This document shows, in pieces, positions 27,353 to 54,517 of a DNA stretch of 64,000 bases. A program made the position numbers and the translations under genes. The notes under the pieces were generated by a model. The model ran no database searches. It had not been told where the DNA came from and saw nothing but the letters and a program-made list of their open reading frames with translations. This stretch comes from Streptomyces sp. NBC_01298 (lineage in GTDB: Bacteria; Actinomycetota; Actinomycetes; Streptomycetales; Streptomycetaceae), in assembly GCF_035978755.1 (NCBI RefSeq), contig NZ_CP108414.1:1736001-1800000 (forward strand). Direction: 5' to 3'. The stretch's first letter is position 1. Each line of letters opens with the position of its first letter.

Positions 27353-28195
27353 TCACACCCCGGGCAGGATGTTCCGGTCGGGAGAGCCCAGCGCACGGAT
27401 GCGCTCCTTGGCCACCTCAATGACATCACCGGACAGGTCGTTGCACGACCACCGGCGCCCCGACAACTCCGCGGCCACTGCCGTGGAGCCGATGCCGACA
27501 AACGGGTCGACGACGTGCTCCCCCTCCCTGGTGAGCAGTTCCATGAAGTAGGTAGGGAGCGCGACGGGGTAGCGATCGATGTGGGGTTCGGTGCCCTCGG
27601 CGGCACAGTGGTCCAGATACTGGAGATCAGTGTACGAATCACCCATCGTCAGAAGGTTCCCGAAGGGATGGGTCAGGCTGCTCTGGAACATGCGCACCTT
27701 TGTGGTGTCCACAGGGACGTCCTTGGCCCGAGAGAACCAGTACCAAGTGCTCACGGAGTCGTGCATTCGGATGCGCTGCTCATCCACCCACTCCTCGCGC
27801 GCGTACAGGAGCTGCGGGTTGTACCAGTAGAACTCCTGCAGCAGGTGCCACTCTCCCTCTTCCAGAAGATCGGCCAGCGCGGCGTAGTTCTGGATGGTCC
27901 TGACAGGACCGTCGCTCGCCCAGGTGCACCCCATCTCCAGGACGACGCTCCCGTCGGGCAGTAGCACGCGCTCGAACTCCTTCATGAAGCGGCGGAACCA
28001 CTCGCTGAAGGGCCGACAGGTCGGGTCGTCGGACGTGATGTCGTACGGTCCTGTGAACCACACGGACGAGACGATAAGGCGGACGCTGGCGTCAGGCAGG
28101 GTCCGCAGGAAGTCGACGGCGTCTCCCCTCGTCAGTCGTCCGTGGTCGGTGCTGATGACGCAAGTCACGTCCGATTCCTTCGTCTCCTGGCTCAT
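27353..28195 (-). CDS. DNA-methyltransferase-like protein coupled to an NRPS gene
   Basis: 280 aa with the beta-class amino-methyltransferase layout: N-terminal catalytic region (LTRGDAVDFLRTLPDASVRL, IVSSVWFTGPYD), a variable middle, and a C-terminal SAM-binding motif (VVDPFVGIGSTAVAAELSGR). The usual catalytic (D/N/S)PP(Y/F) is replaced by SSVWF, followed by GPYD. ATG 28195 overlaps the stop of the adenylation-thiolation gene by 4 bases (ATGA), so it is translated from the biosynthetic operon. It may be an orphan DNA methyltransferase or one recruited to methylate an amine of the product; the altered motif favours altered activity. Confidence 0.75.
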   Translation of the reverse strand: MSQETKESDVTCVISTDHGRLTRGDAVDFLRTLPDASVRLIVSSVWFTGPYDITSDDPTCRPFSEWFRRFMKEFERVLLPDGSVVLEMGCTWASDGPVRTIQNYAALADLLEEGEWHLLQEFYWYNPQLLYAREEWVDEQRIRMHDSVSTWYWFSRAKDVPVDTTKVRMFQSSLTHPFGNLLTMGDSYTDLQYLDHCAAEGTEPHIDRYPVALPTYFMELLTREGEHVVDPFVGIGSTAVAAELSGRRWSCNDLSGDVIEVAKERIRALGSPDRNILPGV

Positions 28196-30018
28196 ATGCG
28201 TTCCTTTCCTGCCGGGGAATCAAGGGTGGGGAGGGTGGTCGCGGCGTCCAGCAAGGTATCGATCACGGCAGCGAGGTCCCCCAGACGGCTGTTGACCAAG
28301 ACGTCGTCCAGCAGGACGTTGGCGCCGAGGTCTCTCTCGATGCCGCGCTGTACCCGGAAGGCCAACAAGGAGTGCCCGCCGAGTTCGAAGAAGTCGTCGT
28401 CGGCCCCAATTCGGTCCATCAACAGCAGTTCCTCCCACAGCCGGGCCAGGTACTTCTCGGCGTCCCCCGCCGGCTCGACGTACCGGTCGCGGCGTTGCGT
28501 GTCCCGCTCGACCAGGCGGTTCACGGCTGCGAGATCCCGCTTGCCGTTGTGGTTCTCCGGTATCCGCTCGCTGACGAGGATCTCGCTGGGCACCATGTAG
28601 TCGGGCAGCCGGAGCCGCAGATGGGTGCGGAGTTCCCTCGGGGCTATCGGTTCGCGCACCACCACGACGGCGACGAGCCGACGGTCCTCGCCGGGACCGG
28701 ACGGGACCACGACGGCATCACGGACGAGAGGATGCTCAACGAGCAAACCCTCCACCTCGCCGGGCTCGACGCGGTATCCGCGGATCTTGACCTGGCGGTC
28801 CACCCGTCCGACGAAGTCCACCAGCCCGTCGGCGCGACGGCGCACCAAATCACCCGTGGCGTACATACGTCCGGTTCCCGTGAACGGATCCGGCAGGAAG
28901 CGCTCCCGGGTCAGCTCAGGAAGCCCCAGGTAGCCGCGAGCCACTCCCGCGCCGCTCACGTTCAGCTCGCCCACGGTCCCGTCGGGCACGGGCGCACCGC
29001 TGCCGTCGAGGATGTACGCGGTCACACCAGACAGCGGTCGGCCGATGGGCACATGACCTGCGCCCAGGCTGGTCTCAGTGACCTGATATCCGAAGCACAT
29101 GGCGGTGGTTTCCGTGGGCCCGTACCCGTTCACCAGGTGGCCCTGGAAACCACTGCTCAGCACATCGGCGCAGGCAGCCGGTGAGAGCACGTCCCCACCG
29201 ACGAGCAGCACCCGGATCGTGTTGAACGCTTCTGCATCCTCCCGAACAACTTGGTTGAAGGCCATGGTCGGGAAGAACATCACCGTGATGCGGTGACGGC
29301 GCAGTTCTTGGGCGAGGTCCAAACCCAGCAGTTCCCGGACGGAGGGCAGGACGACTAGTTCGGCGCCGGCGTCGAAGCAGCACCAGACCTCGAAGATGAA
29401 GGCGTCGAAGGCGATGCTCGACGACTGGGACACACGGTCGTCGGTCTCAATGTCGGGCAACCCAGTGTTGCGCACGAAGGCGAGCACGTTCCTGTGCTCG
29501 ATCAGGATGGGCTTGGGGCGGCCCGTGGAGCCGGAGGTGAAGTACACGCATGCGGCGTCGCCAGACGCAGGGAAGGCCGTGGGACTCCCGTCGAAATCCG
29601 GGAGCCCGATGATGCCACCCCAGACCGTGACCCCGCATCCTTCGGGCGGATCGAAATCCTCTGCCCGTTCCGCGTCCGTGACCAAGAGCTGGGCTCCGGT
29701 GCTACGAATCATCAGGTCAGCCCGGTCGGCTGGATGGCGGGTGTCGATAGGGATATAGGCCGCACCCGCCTTCAGGATCCCAAGGAGTACGGCGAGCAGT
29801 TCTGCCGTGCGCGGCAACCGAACCGCGATCAGGTCCTCCGGCCCGATGCCGCGTGCCGTCAGCTGCCCCGCAAAGGCGTCGGAGTAGCGGTCCAGTTCGT
29901 CGTACGTGATCCGCGCACGACCGTCACTGACCGCGGGCCGCGACCCGTGCCGGCGAGCAGTCTGGGTGAACAACTCCACGAGAGAAATCGTGTGCGGGCG
30001 GGTCGACGCATGTTCCAT
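28192..30018 (-). CDS. NRPS adenylation-thiolation didomain protein
   Basis: 608 aa. Adenylation core motifs in order: VYFTSGSTGRPKPILIEHRN (A3), AFDAFIFEVW (A4), NGYGPTETT (A5), ATGDLVRRRADGLVDFVGRV (A7/A8), RQVKIRGYRVEPGEVE, and NHNGKRDLAAVNRL (A10 Lys). A carrier domain follows with the phosphopantetheine site FFELGGHSLLAFRV. ATG 30018 has GGAGGA 4 bases upstream. It activates an amino acid as an acyl-adenylate and loads it on its own carrier. The specificity pocket begins D-A-F; I cannot assign the substrate safely. It diverges from the ATP-grasp gene across a 200-bp promoter region. Confidence 0.92.
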   Translation of the reverse strand: MEHASTRPHTISLVELFTQTARRHGSRPAVSDGRARITYDELDRYSDAFAGQLTARGIGPEDLIAVRLPRTAELLAVLLGILKAGAAYIPIDTRHPADRADLMIRSTGAQLLVTDAERAEDFDPPEGCGVTVWGGIIGLPDFDGSPTAFPASGDAACVYFTSGSTGRPKPILIEHRNVLAFVRNTGLPDIETDDRVSQSSSIAFDAFIFEVWCCFDAGAELVVLPSVRELLGLDLAQELRRHRITVMFFPTMAFNQVVREDAEAFNTIRVLLVGGDVLSPAACADVLSSGFQGHLVNGYGPTETTAMCFGYQVTETSLGAGHVPIGRPLSGVTAYILDGSGAPVPDGTVGELNVSGAGVARGYLGLPELTRERFLPDPFTGTGRMYATGDLVRRRADGLVDFVGRVDRQVKIRGYRVEPGEVEGLLVEHPLVRDAVVVPSGPGEDRRLVAVVVVREPIAPRELRTHLRLRLPDYMVPSEILVSERIPENHNGKRDLAAVNRLVERDTQRRDRYVEPAGDAEKYLARLWEELLLMDRIGADDDFFELGGHSLLAFRVQRGIERDLGANVLLDDVLVNSRLGDLAAVIDTLLDAATTLPTLDSPAGKERI

Positions 30019-30218
30019 AAATTCCTCCAGGCGCGACGTGCCATAACAGGGCGACCCTACGCGGCCGCCGACGCGAACCGAAACACCAAACCGTGAACTT
30101 GAACACTTCTCCAGAGCACTGGACAGGCAGCCCACCGTCGGGTAAACCGTTTTCGCGCGCCACTAAACGATGGCGCATGCCGGATTCGGCATTAATATTT
30201 CAACGTGAGGTGTGATTG

Positions 30219-31496
30219 ATGCCCACACGAGGGCTCGCTGTGGTGATCGGCCAAGGATCAGCCACTCCCCTGGAGGTGCTCTCCAGCCTTTATCCGAGCA
30301 TTCCGGTGACATTTATCGCCGATGCGGCCATCCCCCGCGGAGGCGTCGTCCCCGAACTCTCCGGGATGGCATCGCTGCTGGTGAACAGCACTGGGTACCA
30401 AGCTCTACTGAGAGAAGTGAGATCGACCCGGCCCGCAGGTATCACGACGTTCAGCGACGCCATGCTGCCCGTCACCGCACGCCTTGCCCATGACCTCGGG
30501 CTGCCCTACCACAGCAGGAAATCCGCCGAGTTGCTAACCGACAAGCACGCCCAGCGGCGACGCCTGGCGTCCGCCGGGCTCGACTCCGTCCGGTGCTGTA
30601 CATTCTCCAATTTCAATCAGTGGCGGCAGGCCGCCACCGAGGTCGGATTCCCGATGGTGGTCAAACCCGTCCGGGGAATGGGCAGCAAGCACACGCATCC
30701 GGTGGCCGACGAGCGGAGCGGTGAGCGTCTCGTCTCGCTTCTTTTCGCGGACACGAGCCACCCGACGAACGAACTCACCTTCATCGCCGAGGAGTTCCTG
30801 CAGGGCCGTAATACGCACCCGTTCGGGGATTACGTGTCGGTCGAGAGCCTGGTACAGGACGGCCGGGTGACGCACATAGCGGTGACCGGAAAGTTTCCAC
30901 AGCGCCCCCCTTTCAGAGAAGTGGGAGACTTCTGGCCGGCGTACGGCACGGAGACCGAGCTCGCCGCAATTCGCGAACTTGCCGAAAGCGCGATCCGGGC
31001 GCTGGGGGTCTCCGTCGGGATCTGCCACACAGAGATCAAGCTGACGACCGCCGGCCCCCGCATCATCGAGGTGAATGGGCGGCTGGGCGGCTACATCTCG
31101 ATCATGGCGCGTCAGGCACTCGGCGTCGACATGGTGGACCTGGCCGCCACGCTGGCCTTGGGGGGGCCCGTTCCAGACACGTTCCCCGAACCATCGTCAG
31201 TGCACTTCCAGTACTCGAACGTGGCCCCAGTCCATGCCTTCCGACTCGAGGCCGTCAACAGCACCAGGTCGGTACGCGAGCACCCGAACGTACGGGCCTA
31301 CCGTCAGTACATCCGGGTCGGCTCCTCGCTACCGGACGGTGTCGAGACACGGCGCTTCGACCTCGTCAGCGGTGTAGCGGACGACCACACGGACATGATC
31401 CGCGTACTACGGGGCGCGCTCGCGGAGCTGAGTTTCAGCCTCGACACCGCCCAAGGGCTTACCGAGCTTGAGGCGCTGTCCCTCCTCGACGGCTGA
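30219..31496 (+). CDS. ATP-grasp ligase
   Basis: 425 aa. ATP-grasp features include GFPMVVKPVRGMGSKHTHPV (ATP-binding lysine and glycine loop), FIAEEFLQGR and the Mg-binding GPRIIEVNGRLGG. Such enzymes form amide bonds through acyl-phosphates, commonly joining amino acids. ATG 30219 is preceded by GAGGTG; an adjacent TTG is the alternative. It is transcribed away from the adenylation gene. In the cluster it may ligate an amino acid to the amino-cyclitol or elongate a peptide. Confidence 0.88.
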   Translation: MPTRGLAVVIGQGSATPLEVLSSLYPSIPVTFIADAAIPRGGVVPELSGMASLLVNSTGYQALLREVRSTRPAGITTFSDAMLPVTARLAHDLGLPYHSRKSAELLTDKHAQRRRLASAGLDSVRCCTFSNFNQWRQAATEVGFPMVVKPVRGMGSKHTHPVADERSGERLVSLLFADTSHPTNELTFIAEEFLQGRNTHPFGDYVSVESLVQDGRVTHIAVTGKFPQRPPFREVGDFWPAYGTETELAAIRELAESAIRALGVSVGICHTEIKLTTAGPRIIEVNGRLGGYISIMARQALGVDMVDLAATLALGGPVPDTFPEPSSVHFQYSNVAPVHAFRLEAVNSTRSVREHPNVRAYRQYIRVGSSLPDGVETRRFDLVSGVADDHTDMIRVLRGALAELSFSLDTAQGLTELEALSLLDG

Positions 31497-31519
31497 GCTG
31501 TGCCCGCATCGCGGGAGGA

Positions 31520-32796: not shown

Positions 32797-33996
32797 TCAT
32801 TCGGACGGGGCCATCGAACCCTTCGGTTCCAGTTCCATGTCGTTGACATGGCGCCGAACCCAAGAGGGGGCTGTACCTTCTCCGTTCACTCCCTTATCGA
32901 TGAAGACGATGTTGTGGTAGAGGTGAATCCCGATGACTGACCTGTCGATTTCTGATGCAGCACGGGCCTCCACATCGACTTGGTCCTGATGATGCAGTCC
33001 GTCGATGAGTCGCTTCACGAACCCGATCCAGGTGGCCTGGTCCGTGAAGTCCTGCCGGTTCCCGTTCCAACCGGGCCAGTACGAGGTCTGCACATCCTCG
33101 ACCACATAGACACCGCCGGGCTTGAGCAGCGGGAAAAGTGTCCTGAACGACGTGATGGTGTCCTCGCTGACGTGGCTGCCGTCGTCGATAATCACATCGA
33201 GTTCGCCAATTCCCCTCGCCACCTCGGTGAGCGATGCATGGTCGGACTGGTCGCACTGTACGGTCCGCATCCGCGGGCGTGTGAGTGGGGACTTGTCGAA
33301 TATGTCCATCCCGAAGATCAACCCCCTGCGGAAATACGACTTCCACAGCCGCAGGGATTCACCGCCCGCATCCGGCGCCTCGAATCCGCCGACACCGATC
33401 TCGAGGACCTTTACGCGCCGGTCGCGGTACTTCTCGAAGTGCTTCTCGTAGTGCGCGGCGAACCAGTTCTCCCCCCACTTGTCGGACGTTGCCCGCATGG
33501 CGAGTTCGCGCACCCTGGGCCGGTACGGGGAGCACGCACCCGCCGCCTGGCCGGCCGCCCGCGTGGCCGCCTGCCACCGTACGAGCCATGGGTCGTCAGG
33601 GGCGTCGGACGCCGGGCCGGGCTCACCGTTGACGGAGATGATCCGGGTGGCGTCGTAGTCCGGACCGGGCGGGCCGTACAGAGCCCGCACCAGCTCGTCG
33701 AGGTCCTGGCGGATCGTCACCTGTGGCTCCAGAACCCGTCCCGGGCGCGCGACACCTTCACCGGAAGTGACCTCGACCACGAACTCCAGCACGATGCCGT
33801 CGGCGGACAGCTCGAATTGCACGTCCACGGGCAGGGCGGGGCCGTCGAAGAGACCCAGCCGAAAGGCGACTTCCTCCAGGGCGACCGCCGCCACCTGGTG
33901 CGGGTTCTCCTTTCTCAAAAGTTCACGGCTCTCGCCGCCGGTGCCGTCTACTATCGCCAGGAGGCGTTCTGGCAGGTCTAGTTCAAGGTTACGCAT
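32797..33996 (-). CDS. MycE-like SAM-dependent O-methyltransferase
   Basis: 399 aa. The C-terminal half is a Rossmann methyltransferase (VKVLEIGVGGFEAPDAGGES ... LDVIIDDGSHVSEDTITSFR ... GGVYVVEDVQTSYWPGW) matching the MycE/CmcI-type group, in which two Asp residues and a His bind metal. The N-terminal 180 residues form the substrate-binding domain seen in MycE. ATG 33996 is chosen over 34038 because the sequence preceding it is unlike the family. MycE methylates a macrolide sugar, so a cyclitol or sugar hydroxyl is the likely target. Confidence 0.82.
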   Translation of the reverse strand: MRNLELDLPERLLAIVDGTGGESRELLRKENPHQVAAVALEEVAFRLGLFDGPALPVDVQFELSADGIVLEFVVEVTSGEGVARPGRVLEPQVTIRQDLDELVRALYGPPGPDYDATRIISVNGEPGPASDAPDDPWLVRWQAATRAAGQAAGACSPYRPRVRELAMRATSDKWGENWFAAHYEKHFEKYRDRRVKVLEIGVGGFEAPDAGGESLRLWKSYFRRGLIFGMDIFDKSPLTRPRMRTVQCDQSDHASLTEVARGIGELDVIIDDGSHVSEDTITSFRTLFPLLKPGGVYVVEDVQTSYWPGWNGNRQDFTDQATWIGFVKRLIDGLHHQDQVDVEARAASEIDRSVIGIHLYHNIVFIDKGVNGEGTAPSWVRRHVNDMELEPKGSMAPSE

Positions 33997-34070
33997 ACCT
34001 CTGTAGCCTTTCTTGACGTGAGCGAGCCGGATTCTCAATCATCTGACATGACGAACGGAAGGAGCAGGAG

Positions 34071-34322
34071 ATGGTTTTCCCCACGACAGCCGAACTGGTG
34101 AAGGAAATATGGCAAGAAGTCCTGGGCATCGAGGTAGATAGGGAAACGGACTTCTTCGAGACGAGTGGCGATTCCCTGTCTGCTATGCGCATCTACGCAA
34201 AGCTTGCCGAAACCCTCGAAGTTTCCCTTCCGCTGGCGGCCCTCTTCGATAACCCCCGCTTCGGGGATTTCACAGCGGTGGTCAGGAACGAAATTTCGAC
34301 TATGAACCGCAACGCCGAGTGA
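34071..34322 (+). CDS. Stand-alone acyl/peptidyl carrier protein
   Basis: 83 aa with the 4'-phosphopantetheine attachment site at S35 (FFETSGDSLSAMRI). The helix pattern and length fit a discrete carrier protein. ATG 34071 follows GGAAGGAGCAGGAG. It diverges from the methyltransferase gene and precedes the exporter genes. A second carrier beside the one fused to the adenylation domain implies a dissociated assembly line with the free condensation domain at 41233. Confidence 0.9.
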   Translation: MVFPTTAELVKEIWQEVLGIEVDRETDFFETSGDSLSAMRIYAKLAETLEVSLPLAALFDNPRFGDFTAVVRNEISTMNRNAE

Positions 34323-34419: not shown

Positions 34420-34446
34420 CGGCACCTCAGGATAGGCGACAGACAG

Positions 34447-36348
34447 GTGAAATCGTTGTTTTTCTTATCGAACAAGGTCGTCCTCCTGCGGGTTCTCCGC
34501 GGGGTCGGCGGGCCCACAGTCGGCCTTCTCCTCGTGGCCCTGGTCATAGAGAGTCTGACTCCCGCGGCCACGGCTCTCGTACTCGCTGAACTCGTCGACG
34601 CGCTCACCGCCGGCACAGCCCAGCCCGACTTCTTCCGCGCCGCGATACCTGGCTTACTAGCCTTCGCCGGCATCCTCCTGGCGAACAGCCTCGCCGAGGC
34701 CTCCGATGGCCCTCTGGTGTTCCGGGTCACAGCACGTGTCGACGGCGCGCATCGTGCGGAGGTCGCCCGGCTGGCCGCTGGTAGCCGCAGTCTCGCGGTT
34801 CTGGAGAGCCCGGCGGTCCAGCAGCTGCTCAGGGAGGTGACGCTGGATCCGGCCCGGGGCTACGACACCACTCCCGCCGAGGGCGCCCTCGCTCAACTCC
34901 GCTGGGCCGCCGGGCTCCTAGGCATCGCAGCCTCATGTGCCGTGCTCACTTGGTACACCTGGTGGCTGGTCCCTCTGGTGCTCCTGCCTGCCCTGCTCAA
35001 CTGGCGTATCAGCAACCGGCAGAGCGCGCGGCTCGCCGGCCTGTGGCGCGGCGCAATCAAAGGGGAGTTGCACGCGGACGTGTGGCGGCAGGCAGCCGTC
35101 TCCCCCGGCGAGGGCAAGGACATCCGGATCTTCGGATTCGCCCCGTGGATGATCCGCCGGATGCAGCACCACGTGGAAACGGCCAACGAGGCTTTCTGGG
35201 CGTACGTTGCGCACATCGTACGCAGTCAGTGGGGCCAGTTCTCGCTGGCGGCAGTGGGGCTGGTCCCCGCCTACGTCAGCGTCGCGGTCAGCGCGGCTGA
35301 CGGCCGGACCAGGGTGGCCGTCGAAGCCGCGGTGCTGGCGGCGGGCTGGTCGGTCTTCCAGGCTCTAGGGCGCAGCATGGAGCAGTACAAGATGGTCTCG
35401 GCGCTCCGCGTAATCGAAGCGACGCGGAACCTCCGCGCAGCCCTAGATCCGGTGGATGGGCCCGTCGCTCCGCCTGCCTGGGCCGCCACGGCACACTCCG
35501 TCAAGCATGACTCCACGTCAGGCCAGGTGTCGGCAACCGCGGGACTCCCGGCGACCGTCCGGTTCGAGGGTGTCACCTTCACCTACCCGGGCGGCTCCCG
35601 TCCCGTACTCCACGGCCTCGACCTGGAGATCCGGCCCGGGGAGCTACTGGCGATCGTCGGGCTCAACGGAGCGGGGAAGTCGACCCTGATCAAGTTGCTC
35701 GCGGGTCTCTACACGCCGTCCGGCGGCCGGATCACCGCCGACGGACGGAACATCGAGGAGCTGGGCATCGACGACTGGCGCTCGCGCTTGTCGATCGTCT
35801 TCCAGGACTTCGTCCGATACCACCTCAGCGCCGCCGACAACGTATCCCTCGGGCAGGCCCGTAAGGCGCCGGACCCCGTGGCCCTGGAGGGGGCGGCACG
35901 GGAGGCCGGGCTTGACGCCGTGCTGAGCAGATTGCCGAACGGCTGGGATACACCGCTCGCGCGGGTGCGCACTGGAGGCGTCGACCTCTCGGGCGGCCAG
36001 TGGCAACAGGTCGTCCTCGCCCGCGCGCTGTACGCGGTATGGAGCGGCGCCCGGCTGCTGGTGCTCGACGAGCCGACCGCCCACCTCGACGTACGGACAG
36101 AGTTTGACGTCTTCAACCGGCTCGCCGAACGCAGAGGCAGCACGAGCGTCGTACTGATCTCCCACCGGTTGTCCACGGTGCGCATGGCGGACCGCATCGT
36201 CCTGCTCGACGGCGGGCGGATAACCGAGTCCGGCACCCATGACGACCTCATGGCGCTGGACGGCAAGTACGCCGAGATGTTCGCCATCCAGGCCGAGCGC
36301 TTCAACCGCGGCTACCAGGATCGCGTCGAGGAAGGGGAACTACAATGA
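34447..36348 (+). CDS. ABC exporter, fused membrane and ATPase domains (1)
   Basis: 633 aa. N-terminal six-helix membrane domain, then an ATPase with Walker A GLNGAGKST, signature LSGGQWQQV and Walker B LLVLDEPTAHLD with the H-loop LISHRLST. Start GTG 34447. Two TTA leucine codons (codon 7 at 34465-34467 and codon 70 at 34654-34656) would make it bldA-dependent. Overlaps the next transporter gene by 4 bases; the two probably form a heterodimeric exporter for the product. Confidence 0.92.
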   Translation: MKSLFFLSNKVVLLRVLRGVGGPTVGLLLVALVIESLTPAATALVLAELVDALTAGTAQPDFFRAAIPGLLAFAGILLANSLAEASDGPLVFRVTARVDGAHRAEVARLAAGSRSLAVLESPAVQQLLREVTLDPARGYDTTPAEGALAQLRWAAGLLGIAASCAVLTWYTWWLVPLVLLPALLNWRISNRQSARLAGLWRGAIKGELHADVWRQAAVSPGEGKDIRIFGFAPWMIRRMQHHVETANEAFWAYVAHIVRSQWGQFSLAAVGLVPAYVSVAVSAADGRTRVAVEAAVLAAGWSVFQALGRSMEQYKMVSALRVIEATRNLRAALDPVDGPVAPPAWAATAHSVKHDSTSGQVSATAGLPATVRFEGVTFTYPGGSRPVLHGLDLEIRPGELLAIVGLNGAGKSTLIKLLAGLYTPSGGRITADGRNIEELGIDDWRSRLSIVFQDFVRYHLSAADNVSLGQARKAPDPVALEGAAREAGLDAVLSRLPNGWDTPLARVRTGGVDLSGGQWQQVVLARALYAVWSGARLLVLDEPTAHLDVRTEFDVFNRLAERRGSTSVVLISHRLSTVRMADRIVLLDGGRITESGTHDDLMALDGKYAEMFAIQAERFNRGYQDRVEEGELQ

Positions 36349-42501: not shown

Positions 42502-42527
42502 CGTGCTCTCTGCCTCCTGGTACGGGC

Positions 42528-45926: not shown

Positions 45927-47102
45927 ATGACCTCCATTCAACTCATAGTTCTGGATGCCACCGGAAGCCGTCGACTGGAGTTTTCCAGCGGGCTTCCGAT
46001 CGTCGAGGTGAAGGATGGTGTCAGCGCGGCACCCGAGGTTCTCGCAGAGGCGATGGGGCAGGAGCTGGGCATTACCGGCACGATCCTGCGAGTTCTGGGA
46101 CGGAATCTTCTGGAAGTCCAGCTGACCGGCTCGGATCGTGTCGACAAGGCCACCCTCGACTGGCGGCCGGTGGCAGACGATCCTGGTCACCGCCTGTGGT
46201 GGCAGCGGCCGGGGTGGATGGAGCTGCTGTCCGGCCCCCTCGACTCCGCACTCGCGGACCGCGGGATCCGGCGCACCGGCCCGCCGGTCCAGGTGCGGTA
46301 CACCAGTGTGACGGGTCTGTTCCAGCTCCCAACAAACCAGGGGACGCTGTGGCTCAAGACCGGGCCGCTTCTCTTCGCGCATGAGCCGGCGGTCATCTCC
46401 TGGGTGGCGGACACCGGGGTCGCGGCCGTTCCGGAGGTCGTTGTCCAGGGGCCGGGCTGGTGGGTGGCGCGGACCTTTCTCGAACCCCTGTCAACACCCG
46501 TAGGTGATCCCCTGCGGAGCATGGCCAAGGTCCAGCTCGCCTCGGTCGACCGCACCGCCGAACTTATCCAGCGCGGCTGTCCCGACCTCCCCCTGGAGCG
46601 CCTCCCGGACGACGTGGCCGACCTGGCCGCGCGGCGAAACCTGCTGACGGCCGACGAGAGCGCACGGCTCCGGGCCGTACTGCCGGCCTTGCGGAGCCTG
46701 TGCGCGCAGGTCGGTGCACTCGGCTTTCCACCGGCCCTGGTGCACGCGGACCTTCACCCTCAGAACGTGCAGTGGACGCGGGACGGCTGGCTGCTGTTCG
46801 ACTGGACGGACTCGTGTGTGACCCACCCGTTCGTCGAACTGGCGATGCCGCTGAGCTACGACACCCCGGCCGTCCGCCGCACCCGGGCCGCAGCCTACGC
46901 CGCGGACTGGCGCCGCATCATGCCGGCCGACGCCGTGGCAAGCGCGCTGCGGGCCGCACCCGTCATCGGGGCCGCCCATCTGGCGGTCAGCTATCGTCGC
47001 ATTCTGGAGAGCATTCAGCACCGCCCCGGCGACCTGCCGAGCAGCGACGACATGGTTCCTTGGTTCAAGGACTGGGTCCACACACTCGCCCGGTCGCTGT
47101 GA
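45927..47102 (+). CDS. Second APH-fold kinase
   Basis: 391 aa. The C-lobe carries LVHADLHPQNVQW and WLLFDWTDSCVTHP, the catalytic and metal motifs. An extra N-terminal segment of about 130 residues (QLIVLDATGSRRLEFSSGLP) resembles a Nudix-like or regulatory fold but lacks a recognisable box. It diverges from the dehydrogenase gene. Substrate may be the cyclitol intermediate or the finished product. Confidence 0.78.
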   Translation: MTSIQLIVLDATGSRRLEFSSGLPIVEVKDGVSAAPEVLAEAMGQELGITGTILRVLGRNLLEVQLTGSDRVDKATLDWRPVADDPGHRLWWQRPGWMELLSGPLDSALADRGIRRTGPPVQVRYTSVTGLFQLPTNQGTLWLKTGPLLFAHEPAVISWVADTGVAAVPEVVVQGPGWWVARTFLEPLSTPVGDPLRSMAKVQLASVDRTAELIQRGCPDLPLERLPDDVADLAARRNLLTADESARLRAVLPALRSLCAQVGALGFPPALVHADLHPQNVQWTRDGWLLFDWTDSCVTHPFVELAMPLSYDTPAVRRTRAAAYAADWRRIMPADAVASALRAAPVIGAAHLAVSYRRILESIQHRPGDLPSSDDMVPWFKDWVHTLARSL

Positions 47103-47121: not shown

Positions 47122-47955
47122 TCAGTCAATGCGCGGGACGCTGACCAGCTCCTCGCTCGTCTCCCACAGCCATGCCGCGAGCCCCTGGTCACGCGCCGCG
47201 TCCGACGTCCCGGCCGGCCTGCGATCGGCGTAGTACGGGGCGACGGGTGCCCCGCCTTCGGCGTCGGTGGCCAGCCACACCAGGGTGTCGGCGCCCTTCT
47301 CCGGCGTCGTCAGCAGAAACCGTTCGAACGGCTTTGTCCAGCGCACGAACGGCGAGTCCCGGTTCAGGTCCGTCCGGACAGAACCCGGGTGGACAGCCGT
47401 GGCGGGCAGTCCGGTGCGCCGCGTCAGCTCGGTGGTGAAGAGGATGTTCGCCAGCTTCGAGTTGCCGTAGGCGAGCCGCCCGCTCCACCGGCGGGCCATC
47501 TGGAGGTCCTCCCGGTCGATCCGTCCGGCCGTGTGGGTGGACGACGAGGTGGTTACGACCCGGCCACCGCTCTCGCGCAGTCGCTCTACGAGCAGTTTCG
47601 TCAGCAGGAACGGAGCCAGGTGATTCACGGCGAGGGTCAGCTCGTGCCCGTCGTCCGAGACCCTCCGCCGGCTCGGCTGCACTCCGGCGTTGTTGATGAG
47701 GACATCCACATGCGAATGCCGGTCTAGCACGATCTCCGCAAGCAGTTCCACTTCCTTCATCCTCGACAGGTCAGCCGGTATCGGCGCGGGTACGGAAACA
47801 CTCTCCGGAGCCACCGCCAGCATCTTCTGGCGCACCCCCTGGAGTTTTGCCTCCGAGTGACCCGTCGCCAGTACCTGATGCCCCAGCCTCGTGAGTTCCA
47901 CCGCCGCAGCGGCACCGATTCCCGAACTGGCCCCTGTCAGGATCACAAAACTCAT
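47122..47955 (-). CDS. Short-chain dehydrogenase/reductase
   Basis: 277 aa. Cofactor motif TGASSGIGAAAAVEL, NNAG at LINNAGVQ, and the catalytic Tyr-Lys in RLAYGNSKLAN. It resembles retinol-dehydrogenase-type SDRs. Start is ATG 47955 (MSFVILTGASS); the frame upstream is a shadow. Convergent with the kinase gene with a 19-base gap. Confidence 0.9.
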   Translation of the reverse strand: MSFVILTGASSGIGAAAAVELTRLGHQVLATGHSEAKLQGVRQKMLAVAPESVSVPAPIPADLSRMKEVELLAEIVLDRHSHVDVLINNAGVQPSRRRVSDDGHELTLAVNHLAPFLLTKLLVERLRESGGRVVTTSSSTHTAGRIDREDLQMARRWSGRLAYGNSKLANILFTTELTRRTGLPATAVHPGSVRTDLNRDSPFVRWTKPFERFLLTTPEKGADTLVWLATDAEGGAPVAPYYADRRPAGTSDAARDQGLAAWLWETSEELVSVPRID

Positions 47956-48021: not shown

Positions 48022-48795
48022 ATGACATACCGACAGAGCTTTGCCTGGTGGTCTTTCACCACGGATGCGGAGAATCCGGCACTTCTGGATTCTGCTGCCG
48101 AAATCGGCTACCAGGGAGTTGATTTCCTGCCCCAGGACCATTGGAACCGGGCGCGGGACGTGGGCCTCGAACTGACGATCATCGACGGCCACATCTCCTT
48201 GGAGGTCGGCTTTAACGACCGCGCCAATCACACCGACCTCGCCGACGAAGTTCGGCGAAATCTCGAACTGGCCGTGAAGGCGGGTGTTCCCGGGCTCGCG
48301 GTCAACGCCGGCAATCGGGGAGCCGCCTCGGACGCTGATGCTGTGGGCATCTGCGCCGAGGGGCTCGCACCGCTGGCGGCCGAGGCAGCTGCGGCTGGCG
48401 TGACGCTGCTGTTGGAACCACTGAACAGCAAGGTCGACCACGTGGGGAACCAGTGCGATCACACCGCCTGGGCGGCCTCGGTGGTCGACGCGGTAGCTTC
48501 CCCCGGCCTCCGGCTCTTGTTTGACGCGTACCACATGCAACTCATGGAGGGTGACCTCCTGCGCACCATGGAGACCCATCTGGACCGCATCGCTCACGTC
48601 CACACGGCGGGCGTGCCGGGCCGGCACGACCTCGACGATAGGCAGGAGGTCAACTGGCGGTCCATCGCCCACCTGTTGCACGATCGCGGCTACGGAGGTT
48701 ACGTCGCCCACGAATTCATTCCGCGCGCCGACCCGGTGGCGGCGTTGCGCACCGCGTACGCGATCTTCGACGAGCCGATGTCGGCTCAGCTGTAG
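48022..48795 (+). CDS. TIM-barrel sugar isomerase (hydroxypyruvate-isomerase-like)
   Basis: 257 aa of the xylose-isomerase-like/AP-endonuclease-2 fold. Metal ligands are suggested in LLLEPLNSK, LRLLFDAYHMQ, HVHTAGVPGRHD and GYVAHEFIP. ATG 48022 is preceded by GAAGGG. It may isomerise or epimerise a keto-cyclitol or sugar precursor. Its end overlaps the convergent amidinotransferase gene by 10 bases. Confidence 0.85.
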   Translation: MTYRQSFAWWSFTTDAENPALLDSAAEIGYQGVDFLPQDHWNRARDVGLELTIIDGHISLEVGFNDRANHTDLADEVRRNLELAVKAGVPGLAVNAGNRGAASDADAVGICAEGLAPLAAEAAAAGVTLLLEPLNSKVDHVGNQCDHTAWAASVVDAVASPGLRLLFDAYHMQLMEGDLLRTMETHLDRIAHVHTAGVPGRHDLDDRQEVNWRSIAHLLHDRGYGGYVAHEFIPRADPVAALRTAYAIFDEPMSAQL

Positions 48796-49826
48796 GTTTC
48801 CAGCGTTCCCGTCCTGCGGACGTCGAGTGTCACACAGTGGAAGCCACCACCAAGGGTTCTGGCGTGCGTCAGCCGAAGCGGCACCACGTCCACGCCGTGA
48901 CGCTCCAGCATGCGGATGAGCTCGGGCTGGCGGTCGTCGACGACCGCCAGCCCGGGACGGACCACCAGCAGGTTCATACCGATCCATACCGAGGCCCTCG
49001 GGTGAGAACCCACGTACCCGACATCGGCCAGTTCGGGGCTGCGCAGCCGTTCCCAGCCCTTGAGGAACTCCGGCATGTTGGAGTCGTTGACCCGCGCAGG
49101 GTTGACCAGGACGAGCCCCGGGCGCAGCGGCACGATGGTCGAGTCGACATGCGTGGAGGCGTACAGGCCCCGGCAGGGGTGCACCTTGTAAGTGTCCCCC
49201 AGCGTGGACTGCAGCCACTGCCAGCCCAGTTCGTTGCCGCTATCCGAGACCAGATACAGGATGTCGGTCCCGAATCTCAGGATGTTCGCCGCATCGAATG
49301 CCGGTTCGAGGTTGCCCAGGCGCTGCCCCGTGGGTGCCGACACGTCGTACATGTCGTCCAGCAGCCTCGGGCGGGGTGCCGCGATCCAACGAGCCCCGCT
49401 GGTGAAGTACTCCGTGAACATCTTCTTGTAGGCGAGCGATTCGAGGAGCCGGGCGCGCAGCACCATCGGCGTCTCGATAATGGTGTTGCCGACCGTCAGC
49501 AGGCCATCGCGCGGGCAGTAATCGTAGAACCCCTCGGTCTCCCAGTCAGGTGTGCTGATCCGCGCCGAGAGGTCCCGGGGCTCGGGGCGCCTCACGGCCA
49601 CCCCAAGTTTACCCAACTCTTGTGCAAGCAGGTCGAGTTCGATTTCGGTCTCCTCGACCACCTGCTGCGAGTAGGGGCCGGAGGGGATGTCCGCAGCGGA
49701 AGCCAGCGTGGAGAACTCCACCCCGTACAGGCTGGTGTCCGGAGCGGGGACTCGCGCGCCGCGCATCGTGCCGACGACGACTTCCTCCAGCGGGTCCCAC
49801 TCGTTGTGTACATCGACCAAGCTCAT
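48786..49826 (-). CDS. Inosamine-phosphate amidinotransferase-like (StrB1 family)
   Basis: 346 aa, the same length class as StrB1. The catalytic Cys331 is in GGGFHCVTLD, the His in YASTHVDSTIV, and the Asp in EPAFDAANILR, so all three active-site elements of the arginine:X amidinotransferase fold are present. It transfers an amidino group from arginine to an amine, here most simply an amino-cyclitol phosphate, supplying the guanidine. Located directly after the cyclase gene in one minus-strand operon. Confidence 0.9.
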   Translation of the reverse strand: MSLVDVHNEWDPLEEVVVGTMRGARVPAPDTSLYGVEFSTLASAADIPSGPYSQQVVEETEIELDLLAQELGKLGVAVRRPEPRDLSARISTPDWETEGFYDYCPRDGLLTVGNTIIETPMVLRARLLESLAYKKMFTEYFTSGARWIAAPRPRLLDDMYDVSAPTGQRLGNLEPAFDAANILRFGTDILYLVSDSGNELGWQWLQSTLGDTYKVHPCRGLYASTHVDSTIVPLRPGLVLVNPARVNDSNMPEFLKGWERLRSPELADVGYVGSHPRASVWIGMNLLVVRPGLAVVDDRQPELIRMLERHGVDVVPLRLTHARTLGGGFHCVTLDVRRTGTLETYS

Positions 49827-49873: not shown

Positions 49874-50989
49874 TCAGGAGGCGACGAGAGTGTCGATGGC
49901 CCGATTCACCGTCTGCCGGGGCACAGCTATCAGAGGCCGGCCGTGGGCCTGGGCAGGGCGCCCAAGAGACTCCAACAGCACCATTGCCGCTTCGTCCTGT
50001 TCTAGCGGCAGGTAGCCCCTCTTGTTATCCGTGGTCAGGAGGTTCTTGACCGTCGCCACTGCCACAGTGCGCAAGTGGGTCTTGGTGAGCGACAACGCAT
50101 CGACGAGCCGGTGGTGGGTCTCGACCTCCGCGGCGGAGAGTCCGCAGACCTCGCGCGCCACGTCGGCAGCGGCGAGCATGCCCCAAGCCACAGCCTCACC
50201 ATGGGAGATACGTCCGGCGGAGGCGAACTCGATGGCGTGCCCGACCGTGTGGCCGTACTCGAAGAGAACGGCTTCCTTCCTCTCCCTGGGGTCCACGGCG
50301 AGGAAGGGCGCCTTGGCCCTGACGCCGATGCGCAGCAGGTTGGTCAGGGCCTGATCCGGCGATGCGCGCCGCTGGTCGACGGCGGCGAGAAAGCCCTCGA
50401 TGTCGTCGGGCATGACGGCCAGCACGTTCTTCGCCATCTCGGCGAGCCCGGTGAGCATCTCCCGGTCTTCCACCGTCTCCAGCCAGGCGAGGTCGCAGGC
50501 GATGAGCGACGGCGTGAGGTAGGCCCCGAAGAGATTCTTGCCGCTCTTCAGATTGACCGCCTGCTTCTCCGATATGACGGCGTCGAAGGCGGCGACAGGC
50601 GTTGTGGGCAGGTGTACCAGGGGGAGTCCCCGGAAGAGCATCGCGGCCACGAGCCCGGCCATGTTACCGAGCACTCCGCCCCCCATCGCGACCACGACGG
50701 AGTCCCGGCCCACCCTCCGCTCGATGAGTTGATCGACAATGCTCTCGACGTTGACGAGGGACTTGCCGGGCTCGCTGGTCACCACCCGCACCGGAATGAT
50801 CCTCAGGTCGTTGCCAAGGTTCGCGATCAACTTCTCCGCGTGCTCGTAGACTTCGTCGTCGATCAGGACGGCGACCGACCCGAAGTCGGCCAGTTCCTGC
50901 GACAGGAGACCAGCGATCTGCGCATTGCAGTCGAATCCAAAATAATAGGGTACGACTTTCTGACCGAATTCTATTCGGTGCGAATCCAT
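49874..50989 (-). CDS. Sugar-phosphate cyclase, 2-deoxy-scyllo-inosose synthase-like
   Basis: 371 aa of the 3-dehydroquinate-synthase superfamily. Signature stretches are VVVAMGGGVLGNMAGLVAAM, LFRGLPLVHLPTTPVAAFDA, KQAVNLKSGKN, LFEYGHTVGHAIE and DNKRGYLPL. The KQAVN...GKN and DNKRGY segments are closest to those I remember from BtrC/NeoC, rather than to valiolone synthases. It would convert glucose 6-phosphate into 2-deoxy-scyllo-inosose, the cyclitol ring precursor. The subgroup call is less certain than the superfamily. Confidence 0.85.
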   Translation of the reverse strand: MDSHRIEFGQKVVPYYFGFDCNAQIAGLLSQELADFGSVAVLIDDEVYEHAEKLIANLGNDLRIIPVRVVTSEPGKSLVNVESIVDQLIERRVGRDSVVVAMGGGVLGNMAGLVAAMLFRGLPLVHLPTTPVAAFDAVISEKQAVNLKSGKNLFGAYLTPSLIACDLAWLETVEDREMLTGLAEMAKNVLAVMPDDIEGFLAAVDQRRASPDQALTNLLRIGVRAKAPFLAVDPRERKEAVLFEYGHTVGHAIEFASAGRISHGEAVAWGMLAAADVAREVCGLSAAEVETHHRLVDALSLTKTHLRTVAVATVKNLLTTDNKRGYLPLEQDEAAMVLLESLGRPAQAHGRPLIAVPRQTVNRAIDTLVAS

Positions 50990-51036: not shown

Positions 51037-51783
51037 TCAACAACCACTCACGCTCAGCAGTCTGGCGAGCTCAGCACCAATGACTTCGACCCGACCCGCT
51101 TCGGCCTCGGGGAACAGAACGATTTCTACCATGCCGCGGGTGGCCCCTGTCCATGCCCGCATATTTTCTTGCTCCGTCGCATCGGCATCCTTGTCGACAA
51201 AAACGACGACCGGAAATCCTGGGGCCGGCTCCGGTTTCCATTCGTACAACTCGACGACCCTCAGGTCGGCCCGCAGCACCGGTGTGAAGAACGCGAACCT
51301 GTCGGGGCTGGCCGCGATGTCCGCCGAGACGATCTCGGCTTCCAATAGCGCCGTCCGGAAGCGATCACCCGGCAAGTCGGCCATGGGTGAGGACGTGTCC
51401 CAGGCGCCAGGGGCGACCTGCCCGAGCACACCAAGCCCAGCCGAGGCGGGCCCGTCACGTTCCAATCTCCGCGCCACCTCATAGGCGATGAACGCCCCAG
51501 AACAGTCCCCCAACAGAAGAAAGGGCTTGCTGTGGTCGCGAGCGTGCCGTCCGATGTTCTCCACGCATTCGGCAACGACCGCCTCCATGTCGAGGAGCAG
51601 CGGTTCGGAGAACCTGCTCTCGCGGCCGGGCAGTCGTACGGTGATGAGACTCAGGTCAGCCGGGGCGCCTTGGGCGAGGTCGCGATGGGAAGCGGCGCCG
51701 GACCCCGGCGAGGGAATGGTGTAGACGTAGGCCGTCGACACCCCGTCGGGCGCGGAATGTTGCAGCATCCAGCGCTCACGCAC
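51037..51783 (-). CDS. Type II thioesterase
   Basis: 248 aa, alpha/beta-hydrolase. Nucleophile elbow LLLGDCSGAFIAYEVARRLE (GxSxG as GDCSGA), with Asp and catalytic His regions less clear. GTG 51783 is chosen for AAGGAGG 7 bases upstream. Removes misloaded acyl groups from carrier proteins or releases the product. Part of the StrR-like/thioesterase/cyclase/amidinotransferase minus-strand run. Confidence 0.85.
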   Translation of the reverse strand: MRERWMLQHSAPDGVSTAYVYTIPSPGSGAASHRDLAQGAPADLSLITVRLPGRESRFSEPLLLDMEAVVAECVENIGRHARDHSKPFLLLGDCSGAFIAYEVARRLERDGPASAGLGVLGQVAPGAWDTSSPMADLPGDRFRTALLEAEIVSADIAASPDRFAFFTPVLRADLRVVELYEWKPEPAPGFPVVVFVDKDADATEQENMRAWTGATRGMVEIVLFPEAEAGRVEVIGAELARLLSVSGC

Positions 51784-51845
51784 GAGATCGCCTCCTTGTG
51801 TGGTGGGCTTGAGCAAGTGGCGCACTGCATCAAGCTGTCGGGGTT

Positions 51846-52883
51846 CTAAGGACGCCTGCGAGTCTCCGAGAGCGCCGTGGCGAGTACACCCTCGTCGCCG
51901 GTCGCTTCCCCGCGCGTCTCCAGCTGTCTGGCGAACTGGTACCAGTCCCGCGAACAGGAGTAGGCGACCGCCACGACGGCGTGTTGCCAACGACTGGGAA
52001 TCCACTTGACGAGCTGCTGCCGGCTCCGGGTGTCGGCGACGTGCGCACCGAAGAGCCGTAGCAGGAGCCGGCCTTCCGGGGACATGCGAAGCTGTGGATC
52101 CCTCATGAGCGCCCGTATGGCCGCGTCCCGACCCGGCGCGCCGTCGGCGCCTGCGATCACCGCCGCCTGCTTCCTCTGCACCGCACTCGCCTCGACCCGC
52201 CGCTGCCGGGGCGGAACTGGATCCTCGTTGCGCTGGAGGCGCTGGCGCACGTCACGCACGGTACCCGGCGACACCCCGGCAGCCTTGGCTATCTCCCGGA
52301 GAGAGGCGTCGGGTTTCTCCACGATCAGCTCGCTCGCCAGCCTACGTCCCTCGGCGCTATTGAGGGGACGCGCTTTCCCGTCTCGCCCGACCCGCATGTG
52401 CAACTGGGGATCTTCCCCAGTTGCCGACCGCCGACGGATCGCGGCGACGGTCTTCGCCGCCAACCCGGCCACTCCGGCAATCGCACGATCAGACCATTCC
52501 GGATGGGACATGACGATGCGCCCTGCCGCAGCTGTGCGGTCCGACAGAGACAGCGGTAGGCCGTGCTGCACATTGGACTCCACCGCGAGGATGAATGCGT
52601 CGATTTCACTGCCGTCGAAGAACTTGACATCAATCTCATCCCCTCCCCGAAAAATTGCCGCATGCAGCCGATGCATCCCGTCGATGACTTTCATCGACGC
52701 GCGATGCACGATGATCGGTGGCAATTCGGCTTCAGACTGGGCAAGCATGCGGGCGTGCTCCATATTCTCACCCGCCAGGCGGGGAGAGTCTGCCGTAACG
52801 AGCGCTGCGATGGCGACCTTCTCGACCTCCAACTCCGCTACGCCACTGTTACGAACAGGCCACGCGGGTATGCCTTCCTTCAC
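51846..52883 (-). CDS. StrR-type ParB/HTH pathway regulator (1)
   Basis: 345 aa. N-terminal ParB-like nuclease-fold domain (PPIIVHRASMKVIDGMHRLH; GLPLSLSDRTAAAGRIVMSH), then two HTH-like segments (WSDRAIAGVAGLAAKTVAAI; ASLREIAKAAGVSPGTVRDV). This is the layout of StrR, NovG and KasT activators of aminoglycoside and aminocoumarin clusters. GTG 52883 is chosen because AGGAGG lies 7 bases upstream; the longer frame to 52985 lacks family similarity. Likely transcriptional activator of the cluster. Confidence 0.87.
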   Translation of the reverse strand: MKEGIPAWPVRNSGVAELEVEKVAIAALVTADSPRLAGENMEHARMLAQSEAELPPIIVHRASMKVIDGMHRLHAAIFRGGDEIDVKFFDGSEIDAFILAVESNVQHGLPLSLSDRTAAAGRIVMSHPEWSDRAIAGVAGLAAKTVAAIRRRSATGEDPQLHMRVGRDGKARPLNSAEGRRLASELIVEKPDASLREIAKAAGVSPGTVRDVRQRLQRNEDPVPPRQRRVEASAVQRKQAAVIAGADGAPGRDAAIRALMRDPQLRMSPEGRLLLRLFGAHVADTRSRQQLVKWIPSRWQHAVVAVAYSCSRDWYQFARQLETRGEATGDEGVLATALSETRRRP

Positions 52884-53139
52884 CACACATCCTCCTGCCG
52901 GATCGTTCACGCAAATGCCTGCGTACAGATGATTCAACCCATGAAGTCCGGTTTGGGTCACACTTGGACCCGCGAGCTTTCCCAACCTCGCTCCGAGCCA
53001 GCCAGATACACGCAGGACTGACTGAACGAGGCCAGGTATGCGGGTGGTCGGGCAGAGTCAGCGGAGAGGCACCTGACTCTGAGCCCACAGCGGCGCTTCC
53101 CCCAACGGGATGGGCACCGCCACCGGGTCCACTCCTCAC

Positions 53140-53410
53140 CGCCAGTTCGTCGACGGCCACCAGCACCGTCACGGCGTGAAGCGCCTCGGCAACGCCCTTG
53201 ACCTCTCCCGCTCGAGCCTCCACCACTGGCGCCACGCGGCGGCTGCACGATCGGCCCGGCAGATCCCCGAGGCCGGACTCGCGGCCCGGATACCTAAGGT
53301 CCACCAGAAAATCCGACGCCATCTACAGGTTCCCCAGGAGCACCACCGAGCTCCGGAACGAGGGCTGGCCGGTGGTCAACCACAAACGCGTCGCGAGGTC
53401 TCGGTTTAGC
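53140..53410 (+). pseudogene. IS3-family transposase remnant
   Basis: FVDGHQHRHGVKRLGNALDL, SRSSLHHWRHAAAARSARQI and AARIPKVHQK are the OrfB N-terminal region. A frameshift follows, into IYRFPRSTTELRNEGWPVVN and HKRVAR. Catalytic domain absent. Nothing else is supported in 52884-53434. Confidence 0.7.
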
Positions 53411-53434
53411 AAGCGGCCGGCTGGCCCAGGAGGC

Positions 53435-54517
53435 TCACCGGGCCTCCCGTAAGTTGCTGTTGAGCCGCTCCGTCCGCTGGAGCGTGTCGGCGAGCCGCTC
53501 CCACTCCCTGGCGTAGTGCCGTGCCACCTCGGCGGCGGCCTGCATGCAGTGCGGCGGCACAGACGCCAGCAGACCCTGCCCCACGGCCAGTTCGCCACTG
53601 CGACCGTCGATCCAGCGCAACAGCGCACGCCCCCTGTCAGTGAAGCGAATCGAGGGGTCGCGGTAGAGCGAGACGGCGGCGCGAGGCCGGGTGCGTACGG
53701 TCTCCGTCTCCCCCGGGGGCTCGGCCCGCTCGGAGACGCTCCGCATGGGGCCTTCCTGCCAGGGGTTCGCAACAGCGTCGATCGAAGTCCCCTTCCCCAG
53801 AGCAGGCCCCGAGGAGGAGGCCGGCAGGACCTTTCGACCCTGACCGCTACCCGTGGGTTGAACCGGTGCCGCGTGGCGCATCCGGTGCACCGTGCTGATG
53901 GAGACCCCCGCCTCCTCTGCGACGTCCCGGAGCCTTGCCTGCGGGCGTTCCGCTAGCAGGATGCGGGCCTTCTCGCGGCGCCGCGACATGTCGACGGGGC
54001 GGACCCTGCCGTCCCTGCCGACGCGAGCGGTCGCTCCGTTAGGGTCGTCGCCGTCTTTCGAGTGAGGAGTTTCCTCGCTCGAACATCTCCTTCGGGCGGC
54101 TCCCACGGTCTTGGGAGAGACTCCGCTGACCGCCGCAATGGCCCGGTCGGACCAGTGCGGATGAGAGTCGAGGATGCGGATGACGGCCGCTCTGCGATCC
54201 TTGAGAGTCAGGGGCAGTCCGTGGCGGGTGTTGGCCGCTACGGAGCGGACAAACAGGTCGGCGGACGGCCCCTCGACATAGCGGACGGGCAGGTCGCGCG
54301 CGCCGCGCATTATCGAGGCGCGCAGCCGGTGCATGCCGTCGACTACGCGGCCAGTGGCCCCGTGCACGAGGATCGGTTCGAGCGCCCTGCCGCTCTCGGC
54401 GAGCACCTGCGCATGGTCATGGCACAGGCCCCCCAGACGCGGTGAATCCGACGGCAACAGGGACGCCACAGGCACCATGTGGACCTCTAAGTCCGGTTCG
54501 TCGAACAACTTCCTCAC
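53435..54517 (-). CDS. StrR-type ParB/HTH pathway regulator (2)
   Basis: About 360 aa. ParB-like domain (EPILVHGATGRVVDGMHRLR; GLPLTLKDRRAAVIRILDSH), HTH segments (WSDRAIAAVSGVSPKTVGAA; ARLRDVAEEAGVSISTVHRM), and a C-terminal extension with AAAEVARHYAREWERLADTL. A paralogue of the protein encoded at 51846, sharing the same order of motifs. The start is uncertain; GTG 54517 is the most family-like, and the frame stays open to 54682. Confidence 0.82.
   Translation of the reverse strand: MRKLFDEPDLEVHMVPVASLLPSDSPRLGGLCHDHAQVLAESGRALEPILVHGATGRVVDGMHRLRASIMRGARDLPVRYVEGPSADLFVRSVAANTRHGLPLTLKDRRAAVIRILDSHPHWSDRAIAAVSGVSPKTVGAARRRCSSEETPHSKDGDDPNGATARVGRDGRVRPVDMSRRREKARILLAERPQARLRDVAEEAGVSISTVHRMRHAAPVQPTGSGQGRKVLPASSSGPALGKGTSIDAVANPWQEGPMRSVSERAEPPGETETVRTRPRAAVSLYRDPSIRFTDRGRALLRWIDGRSGELAVGQGLLASVPPHCMQAAAEVARHYAREWERLADTLQRTERLNSNLREAR

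Follow-up and report, generated by a model that had tools for sequence, protein, structure and literature searches.

Which product is made by a block of genes in which aminocyclitol enzymes and parts of a nonribosomal peptide synthetase (NRPS) lie intermingled is the question raised by a locus of Streptomyces sp. NBC_01298. The stretch analysed (the window) is 64,000 nucleotides long, bases 1736001-1800000 of contig 1 of the 9.7 Mb genome, and the block occupies positions 27353-54517, where 23 genes were scanned as cluster members (coordinates below are those of the window, followed by the strand). The first-pass annotation of the window described a hybrid aminocyclitol-NRPS cluster with an unassigned product, a description that matches both the window sequence and three sister clusters in other genomes, and each gene class that it named was located as an open reading frame (ORF) in its place by ORF and profile checks. 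To these may be added a YcgG/GntA-type hydroxylase, a GMC oxidase, a short-chain dehydrogenase (SDR), a TIM-barrel isomerase, a cytochrome P450, an O-methyltransferase and a DNA-methylase-like protein. Judged from sequence, the locus is probably one cluster for a guanidinylated 2-deoxy-aminocyclitol that bears an amino acid or a small peptide.

The nature of the ring depends on the cyclase (49874-50989, -), which profiles, comparison with structural chains, residues and a tree place with 2-deoxy-scyllo-inosose (DOI) synthases, as the first-pass annotation had it. The closest chain is the DOI synthase BtrC (E 1e-57), followed by dehydroquinate synthases from 5e-38 and, far weaker by sequence, the 2-epi-5-epi-valiolone synthase 4p53 (8e-24). 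The cyclase has the residues KQAVN, FEYGHT and DNKRGY as in BtrC, where dehydroquinate synthases have KTGIN and LNYGHT; KQ(A/T)(V/I)N, EYGHT and DNKRGY are common to the cyclases of the window, the sister clusters, 2-deoxystreptamine (DOS)-type loci and BtrC, and KTGIN with NYGHT is found in the dehydroquinate synthase 3qbd and in the aroB product of the same genome. In a tree of 55 sequences, whose support values were taken after re-rooting and may be off by one node, the window cyclase pairs with one from Nonomuraea (no support value for the pair, 100 for the enclosing clade of seven) as part of a 34-member clade (support 100) distinct from the DOS-type synthases, and the three sister-cluster cyclases form a clade of their own (support 100) near the DOS-type synthases. 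The window and sister cyclases being in separate clades, the cyclase seems therefore to have been exchanged between relatives of the cluster. To our knowledge, no member of the clade of the window cyclase has been assayed or otherwise characterised. The separate position of these 34 sampled sequences would suit a cyclase that makes a different ring, such as a C7 cyclitol or some other keto-cyclitol, but the DOI-synthase residues are kept and the next two genes of the DOS pathway after DOI synthase are present, which makes a different ring quite improbable; DOI, presumably formed from glucose 6-phosphate, is the preferred product.

Public relatives of window proteins include the cyclase (71% identity), condensation domain (58%) and isomerase (78%) of Nonomuraea sp. 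NPDC059023, and a partial cyclase (92% identity over 65% of the query) from Streptomyces sp. NPDC052196. Cyclases with 44-55% identity were found in ten other actinobacterial loci (L017-L026), with a related aminotransferase in the flanks of eight and an amidinotransferase match in none of the ten within the flanking sequence taken. Proteins with condensation domains lie near the cyclase in at least four of them (L017, L018, L022 and L023), which combine DOI-synthase-like cyclases of a separate clade with carriers or AMP ligases recognised by eye; three of the four have the related aminotransferase and none has an amidinotransferase match. These four loci possibly encode other aminocyclitol amides.

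A single aminotransferase of the L-Gln:DOI/scyllo-inosose type, identified by profile and by chain comparison, is present in the window (43434-44711, -); its three best chains are all L-glutamine:DOI aminotransferases, in keeping with an earlier StsC-type assignment, and it is 47-54% identical to homologues in sister, DOS-type and streptomycin-type loci and in a locus of genome G152. The dehydrogenase already reported is a Zn-dependent enzyme of the DOI-amine (E-type) kind (44747-45766, -) by profiles and by DOS-type homologues. Two loci called DOS-type by gene set (G161 and G240, 20 kb of each) hold a cyclase, an aminotransferase and a dehydrogenase, the last 58-60% identical to that of the window, and have no match to the window amidinotransferase or GMC oxidase within those 20 kb. 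The trio C, S and E makes DOS, according to the portion of the source used here (PMC5461906). The window has C, S and E genes just as the DOS pathway does, but differs from it by the addition of an amidinotransferase, a kinase, a phosphatase and NRPS genes, and by a cyclase from a sibling clade.

The added genes resemble those of streptidine synthesis. The amidinotransferase (48786-49826, -), the sole one in the window, gives no Pfam match but aligns over almost its whole length with the inosamine-phosphate amidinotransferase StrB1 (1bwd, E 6e-168), upholding the StrB1-like assignment. Pfam likewise recognises the two kinases and the phosphatase of the first-pass annotation: an APH-fold kinase (42528-43427, -; PF01636) that we take to be StsE-like, a second APH-fold kinase (45927-47102, +; PF01636), and an inositol-monophosphatase-family phosphatase (38783-39715, -; PF00459) with a presumably StrO-like role. 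The adjacent GMC-type FAD oxidoreductase (39712-41223, -; PF05199) is presumably StsB-like; StsC, StsE, StrB1, StrO, StsB and StrR make up the corresponding streptidine set. All four streptomycin-type loci examined (40 kb of G148 and 20 kb each of G326, G513 and G591) contain homologues of the window aminotransferase (50-53%), GMC oxidase (48-51%), StsE-like kinase (43-44%), amidinotransferase (55-70%) and StrR-type regulator (47-53%), and three of the four contain a phosphatase homologue (31-33%), but the 20-40 kb read have no match to the window cyclase, isomerase, SDR or second kinase. G148 also encodes a glucose-1-phosphate thymidylyltransferase scoring over its cut-off and an APH(6) relative just under its own (317.7 bits against 325). 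In contrast to the streptomycin cluster, the window begins its ring with a DOI-synthase-type cyclase, has a single amidinotransferase, adds an isomerase, an SDR, a second kinase, a condensation domain, NRPS genes and a YcgG protein, and shows no dTDP-sugar family among the proteins scanned. The window would thus appear to combine the opening part of the deoxystreptamine pathway with the first half of streptidine synthesis.

Whether this combination is a unit was examined by comparing the condensation domain with 392 genomes of the genus at 1e-50, a search whose counts, like those of the GMC oxidase and isomerase searches below, are lower bounds, few candidates being scored per genome. Four genomes matched, namely the window's own and G435, G446 and G533 (three of 391 others). 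In all three sisters, twelve genes occur together within about 24-30 kb in shuffled order: those for the cyclase (39-42% identity), aminotransferase (48-54%), StsE-like kinase (38-43%), second kinase (37-38%), amidinotransferase (68-69%), phosphatase (31-35%), GMC oxidase (48-53%), SDR (60-63%), isomerase (60-65%), condensation domain (35-38%) and the two ATP-binding cassette (ABC) exporter subunits (54-59% and 58-62%). Because twelve genes recur together in three other genomes, the gene set was not assembled by chance; by these comparisons, the window and G435, G446 and G533 are a real cluster family. The second kinase has so far been seen in this family only, without a match in the streptomycin-type or DOS-type stretches, and by its sequence may have either a biosynthetic or a self-resistance role. 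A search of 343 genomes of the genus with the GMC oxidase at 1e-60 matched nine, comprising the four of the family, the streptomycin-type (by gene set) G326, G513 and G591, and G324 and G350, in which the surroundings are other; among 394 genomes of the class, only the window's own and the streptomycin-type G148 matched.

Two of the shared genes suggest that the ring is reworked after oxidation. The xylose-isomerase-like TIM-barrel protein (48022-48795, +), recognised by profile, has the fold of ketose/keto-glucoside epimerases, and the SDR (47122-47955, -; PF00106) lies beside it; the cyclitol ring is probably epimerised, as far as sequence can indicate. A search of 296 genomes of the class with the isomerase at 1e-70 matched only the window's own genome, while other public genomes contain relatives, among them those of Nocardia brasiliensis (70%) and Salinispora tropica (62%); given such close relatives in other genomes, the isomerase alone is not diagnostic. 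In G350 (L136:8937-14839 and L137:62-2331), a pair of GMC oxidases is grouped with a TIM-barrel-like protein, a DegT-type aminotransferase and an SDR (the isomerase and SDR identified by eye), with no amidinotransferase match at the locus, and the pairing of oxidase with isomerase may recur elsewhere in this way.

How an amino acid could be attached is suggested by the NRPS parts, all of which profiles recognise as the first-pass annotation had listed them: a protein with adenylation and peptidyl carrier protein (PCP) domains (A-PCP; 28192-30018, -; PF00501, PF13193 and PF00550, carrier motif GGHSL), a free-standing PCP of 83 residues (34071-34322, +; PF00550, SGDSL), a free-standing condensation domain (41233-42531, -; PF00668, HHVLYDG intact) and an ATP-grasp ligase (30216-31496, +), which profiles and chain comparison liken to BacD and L-amino-acid ligases. 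The adenylation, carrier and condensation domains have intact motifs, and the separation of A-PCP, PCP and condensation domain into different proteins suits aminoacyl transfer to a soluble amine, so that the condensation domain presumably forms the amide. VibH is a free-standing condensation domain that acts on a soluble amine; in a general resemblance, the window condensation domain is likewise separate, with an intact HHxxxDG motif and separate PCPs, and it differs in that its proposed acceptor is an aminocyclitol. The A-PCP specificity code, presumably D-A-F-F-L-G-G-A-M-K from positions assumed in reading it by hand, is weakly aliphatic.

That the NRPS genes (27-34 kb) might be a cluster of their own next to a separate cyclitol cluster (34-54 kb) is favoured by the absence from the three sister stretches of any match to the P450, O-methyltransferase and methylase-like genes, and by matches that are only partial for the ATP-grasp ligase and lone PCP. 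But the cassette of each of the three sisters encloses A-PCP-type NRPS genes (33-35% identity), the free condensation domain sits among cassette genes in window and sisters alike, and the extra genes of the window are placed between the A-PCP and ABC genes; two neighbouring clusters are accordingly given a very slight chance. The sisters have different genes for the acyl part: those of G435 encode a KS-AT-KR-DH-ACP protein together with a two-module NRPS and MbtH, those of G533 a KS protein besides a two-module NRPS, and those of G446 extra condensation-domain and A-PCP proteins. In G435, a 779-residue protein of the lantibiotic-dehydratase N-terminal type (L101:16076-18415) is also encoded, with the phosphatase gene on one side of it and the PKS/NRPS genes on the other.

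What becomes of the guanidine is suggested by a YqcI/YcgG protein (38167-38937, +; PF08892), a GntA-like and predicted heme-dependent guanidine N-hydroxylase that scores 186.8 bits against the GntA equivalog cut-off of 145 (NCBIfam NF041366); the 3' end of its gene runs 155 nucleotides into the convergent ORF of the phosphatase. A cysteine within its YTCIGG sequence is a candidate for the heme-binding residue, which in AglA is Cys44 (PMC12866846). The same source states that YcgG enzymes hydroxylate guanidines and that their substrates are arginine derivatives (PMC12866846). The guanidine of the proposed product is probably N-hydroxylated, and the likely substrate of the window enzyme is the cyclitol guanidine, unlike those of the known GntA/AglA-type members within the compass of that source. 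Were the enzyme to act on arginine, it and the NRPS would make a peptide of the N-hydroxyarginine type, the cyclitol genes giving a second, un-hydroxylated block; the substrates of known YcgG enzymes fit this, and A-PCP, ATP-grasp ligase and P450 could handle the amino acid. It is nevertheless unlikely, in view of an adenylation-domain code that looks aliphatic and not arginine-like, a YcgG gene that adjoins the cassette GMC gene in G446 and G533 (and also the cyclase gene in G446), and the presence of an amidinotransferase for a cyclitol guanidine.

It may be asked whether the cyclitol also carries sugars. A true aminoglycoside, in which transferases encoded elsewhere glycosylate the guanidinylated deoxycyclitol and the part of the NRPS is confined to adding a side chain, would have a precedent in the 4-amino-2-hydroxybutyrate side chain of butirosin. 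It would account for the StrR-type control, for an O-methyltransferase of a glycoside-modifying family, and for the full C, S and E set of DOS, as that set is given in the part of the source cited (PMC5461906). It is distinctly unlikely, however: Pfam found no glycosyltransferase family among 41 scanned window genes (23 in the cluster, 8 on the right flank and 10 on the left; this search did not extend to the remainder of the genome), and none was recognised in the sister clusters by eye and homology, with some of their proteins scanned. Sugar-free compounds of a related kind exist in the nabscessins of Nocardia abscessus, derivatives of 2-deoxy-scyllo-inosamine for which six ORFs including a DOI synthase have been proposed (PMC11364655, as excerpted). 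Like the proposed product, they are acylated, sugar-free 2-deoxy-aminocyclitols whose synthesis is proposed to start from a DOI synthase; unlike it, they have no guanidine described in those excerpts and their acyl groups are 3-hydroxybenzoate and 6-methylsalicylate (PMC11364655).

A pathway to a sugar-free, guanidine-bearing cyclitol amide may be proposed. The cyclase would convert glucose 6-phosphate to DOI (step 1) and the aminotransferase would convert DOI to 2-deoxy-scyllo-inosamine (step 2), after which, in the present cluster, the Zn dehydrogenase and the same aminotransferase could introduce a second amine by analogy with 2-deoxystreptamine (step 3). The StsE-like kinase would phosphorylate the ring, the StrB1-like enzyme would transfer the amidino group of arginine to what is presumably a ring amine, and the inositol-monophosphatase-like enzyme would remove the phosphate (step 4). 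The StsB-like GMC oxidase would then make a ring ketone, which the TIM-barrel enzyme would epimerise or shift and the SDR would reduce (step 5); YcjS, YcjR and YcjQ perform a comparable oxidation, epimerisation and reduction on glucosides. The GntA-like heme enzyme would hydroxylate a guanidine nitrogen (step 6). A-PCP and the free PCP would carry an amino acid, perhaps aliphatic and perhaps oxidised by the P450, whose aminoacyl group the free-standing condensation domain would pass to the soluble cyclitol amine in the manner of VibH, and the ATP-grasp ligase would add a further amide (step 7). The TylE/MycE-type enzyme would O-methylate a ring hydroxyl (step 8), the ABC pair would export the product and the StrR-type proteins would activate the genes (step 9). 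The sister clusters would keep steps 1, 2, 4 and 5, the condensation domain and the exporter, and would swap the genes that make the acyl group.

Several observations weigh against this scheme. The cyclase clade is apart from that of the sisters, so the DOI product is deduced from residues. At 1e-50 the Zn dehydrogenase is found in one of the three sisters (G446), and the YcgG homologue is found in two (G446 and G533), the genome of G435 giving no match to it at 1e-10; the shared core would therefore not include steps 3 and 6. Since there is one aminotransferase and one amidinotransferase, sisters that lack the dehydrogenase would have to obtain a free amine in some other way, or else form an ester or an acylguanidine. 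As the YcgG enzymes in the source cited above act on arginine derivatives, hydroxylation could target arginine instead. The adenylation-domain code was read by hand. No match at 1e-8 to the P450, O-methyltransferase, methylase-like protein or thioesterase was found in the three sister stretches (60, 49.5 and 48 kb), and these four are placed in the pathway by position. The thioesterase-fold protein appears to be without the normal catalytic residues, as detailed below. No StrR box was found within three mismatches of the consensus used.

The first-pass annotation listed a thioesterase, and the fold is indeed that of one (51037-51825, -; PF00975), but the catalytic residues are not: alignments to 7e3z and RifR place GDCSG (instead of GxSxG) where relatives have GHSMG, and they stop before the usual histidine, none being present in the last 27 residues. 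With cysteine in place of the nucleophilic serine and the late histidine absent, ordinary hydrolysis is doubtful. The P450 (31569-32750, -; PF00067) has the heme-cysteine motif FNIGIHHCLGA, and the TylE/MycE-type sugar O-methyltransferase (32797-34038, start probably 33996, -; PF17843) matches 8ia9 (E 4e-77) and 3ssm (E 6e-74). At the left end, a 280-residue N6/N4 DNA-methylase-like protein (27353-28195, -; PF01555, 66 bits), whose gene overlaps that of A-PCP by four nucleotides, matched one of 246 genomes of the genus at E<=1e-50, its own; a homologue with 53-54% identity in G152 (L114:8069-8878) adjoins a DOI-synthase-like cyclase gene and is near an aminotransferase gene. Its motif IV is unusual (SSVW), and one guess is that it is a small-molecule N-methyltransferase. 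ATP-grasp, free PCP and StrR each have one sister match, partial for the first two.

The exporter and the regulators are as had been claimed. Two ABC subunits lie at 34444-38153 (PF00005 in each), the first at 34444-36348 (+; start uncertain, the ORF being open from 34339) and the second at 36345-38153 (+). StrR-type regulator 1 (51846-52985, start uncertain, about 52829, -) is 47-53% identical to the StrR-position genes of the four streptomycin-type loci and 43% to a homologue in G533, regulator 2 (53435-54682, start uncertain, 54517 likely, -) is 42-45% identical to the StrR-position genes, and the two are 37% identical to each other. Two TTA codons occur in the second regulator gene (53435-54517) and, counting from its uncertain start, two in the first ABC gene, which may place both under bldA control. 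Close to the left edge of the cluster are fragments of Mutator- and ISL3-type transposases (25056-25469 and 26528-26920). A codon-score gene caller skipped the lone PCP and the isomerase, both of which are recognised by profiles, and a string search with chosen motifs found those expected in the amidinotransferase, condensation domain, both carriers, aminotransferase, P450, phosphatase and both kinases.

No described cluster or pathway with the same gene set was found in the open-licence literature, in line with the first-pass annotation; known enzymes apparently occur here in a combination that is common to a small cluster family and undescribed. Such hybrid molecules are stated to have no support in a recent saccharide-mining program, in the part of its description consulted (PMC12498427). 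Tentatively, and with somewhat less than even confidence, the window, its three relatives in the same genus and a Nonomuraea may define an undescribed product family, an epimerised N-hydroxyguanidino 2-deoxy-aminocyclitol from a fused deoxystreptamine-streptidine pathway, with interchangeable peptide or polyketide caps added by a dedicated free condensation domain and with the ring guanidine, not arginine, hydroxylated. The combination of amidinotransferase, DOI synthase, StsB-like oxidase, TIM-barrel isomerase and free condensation domain would offer a handle for genome mining. If correct, the family would bring together two textbook aminocyclitol pathways that ordinarily occur apart, would provide a route to cyclitol amides that bear a guanidine but no sugar and have exchangeable acyl chains, and may present a non-arginine substrate for YcgG guanidine hydroxylases.

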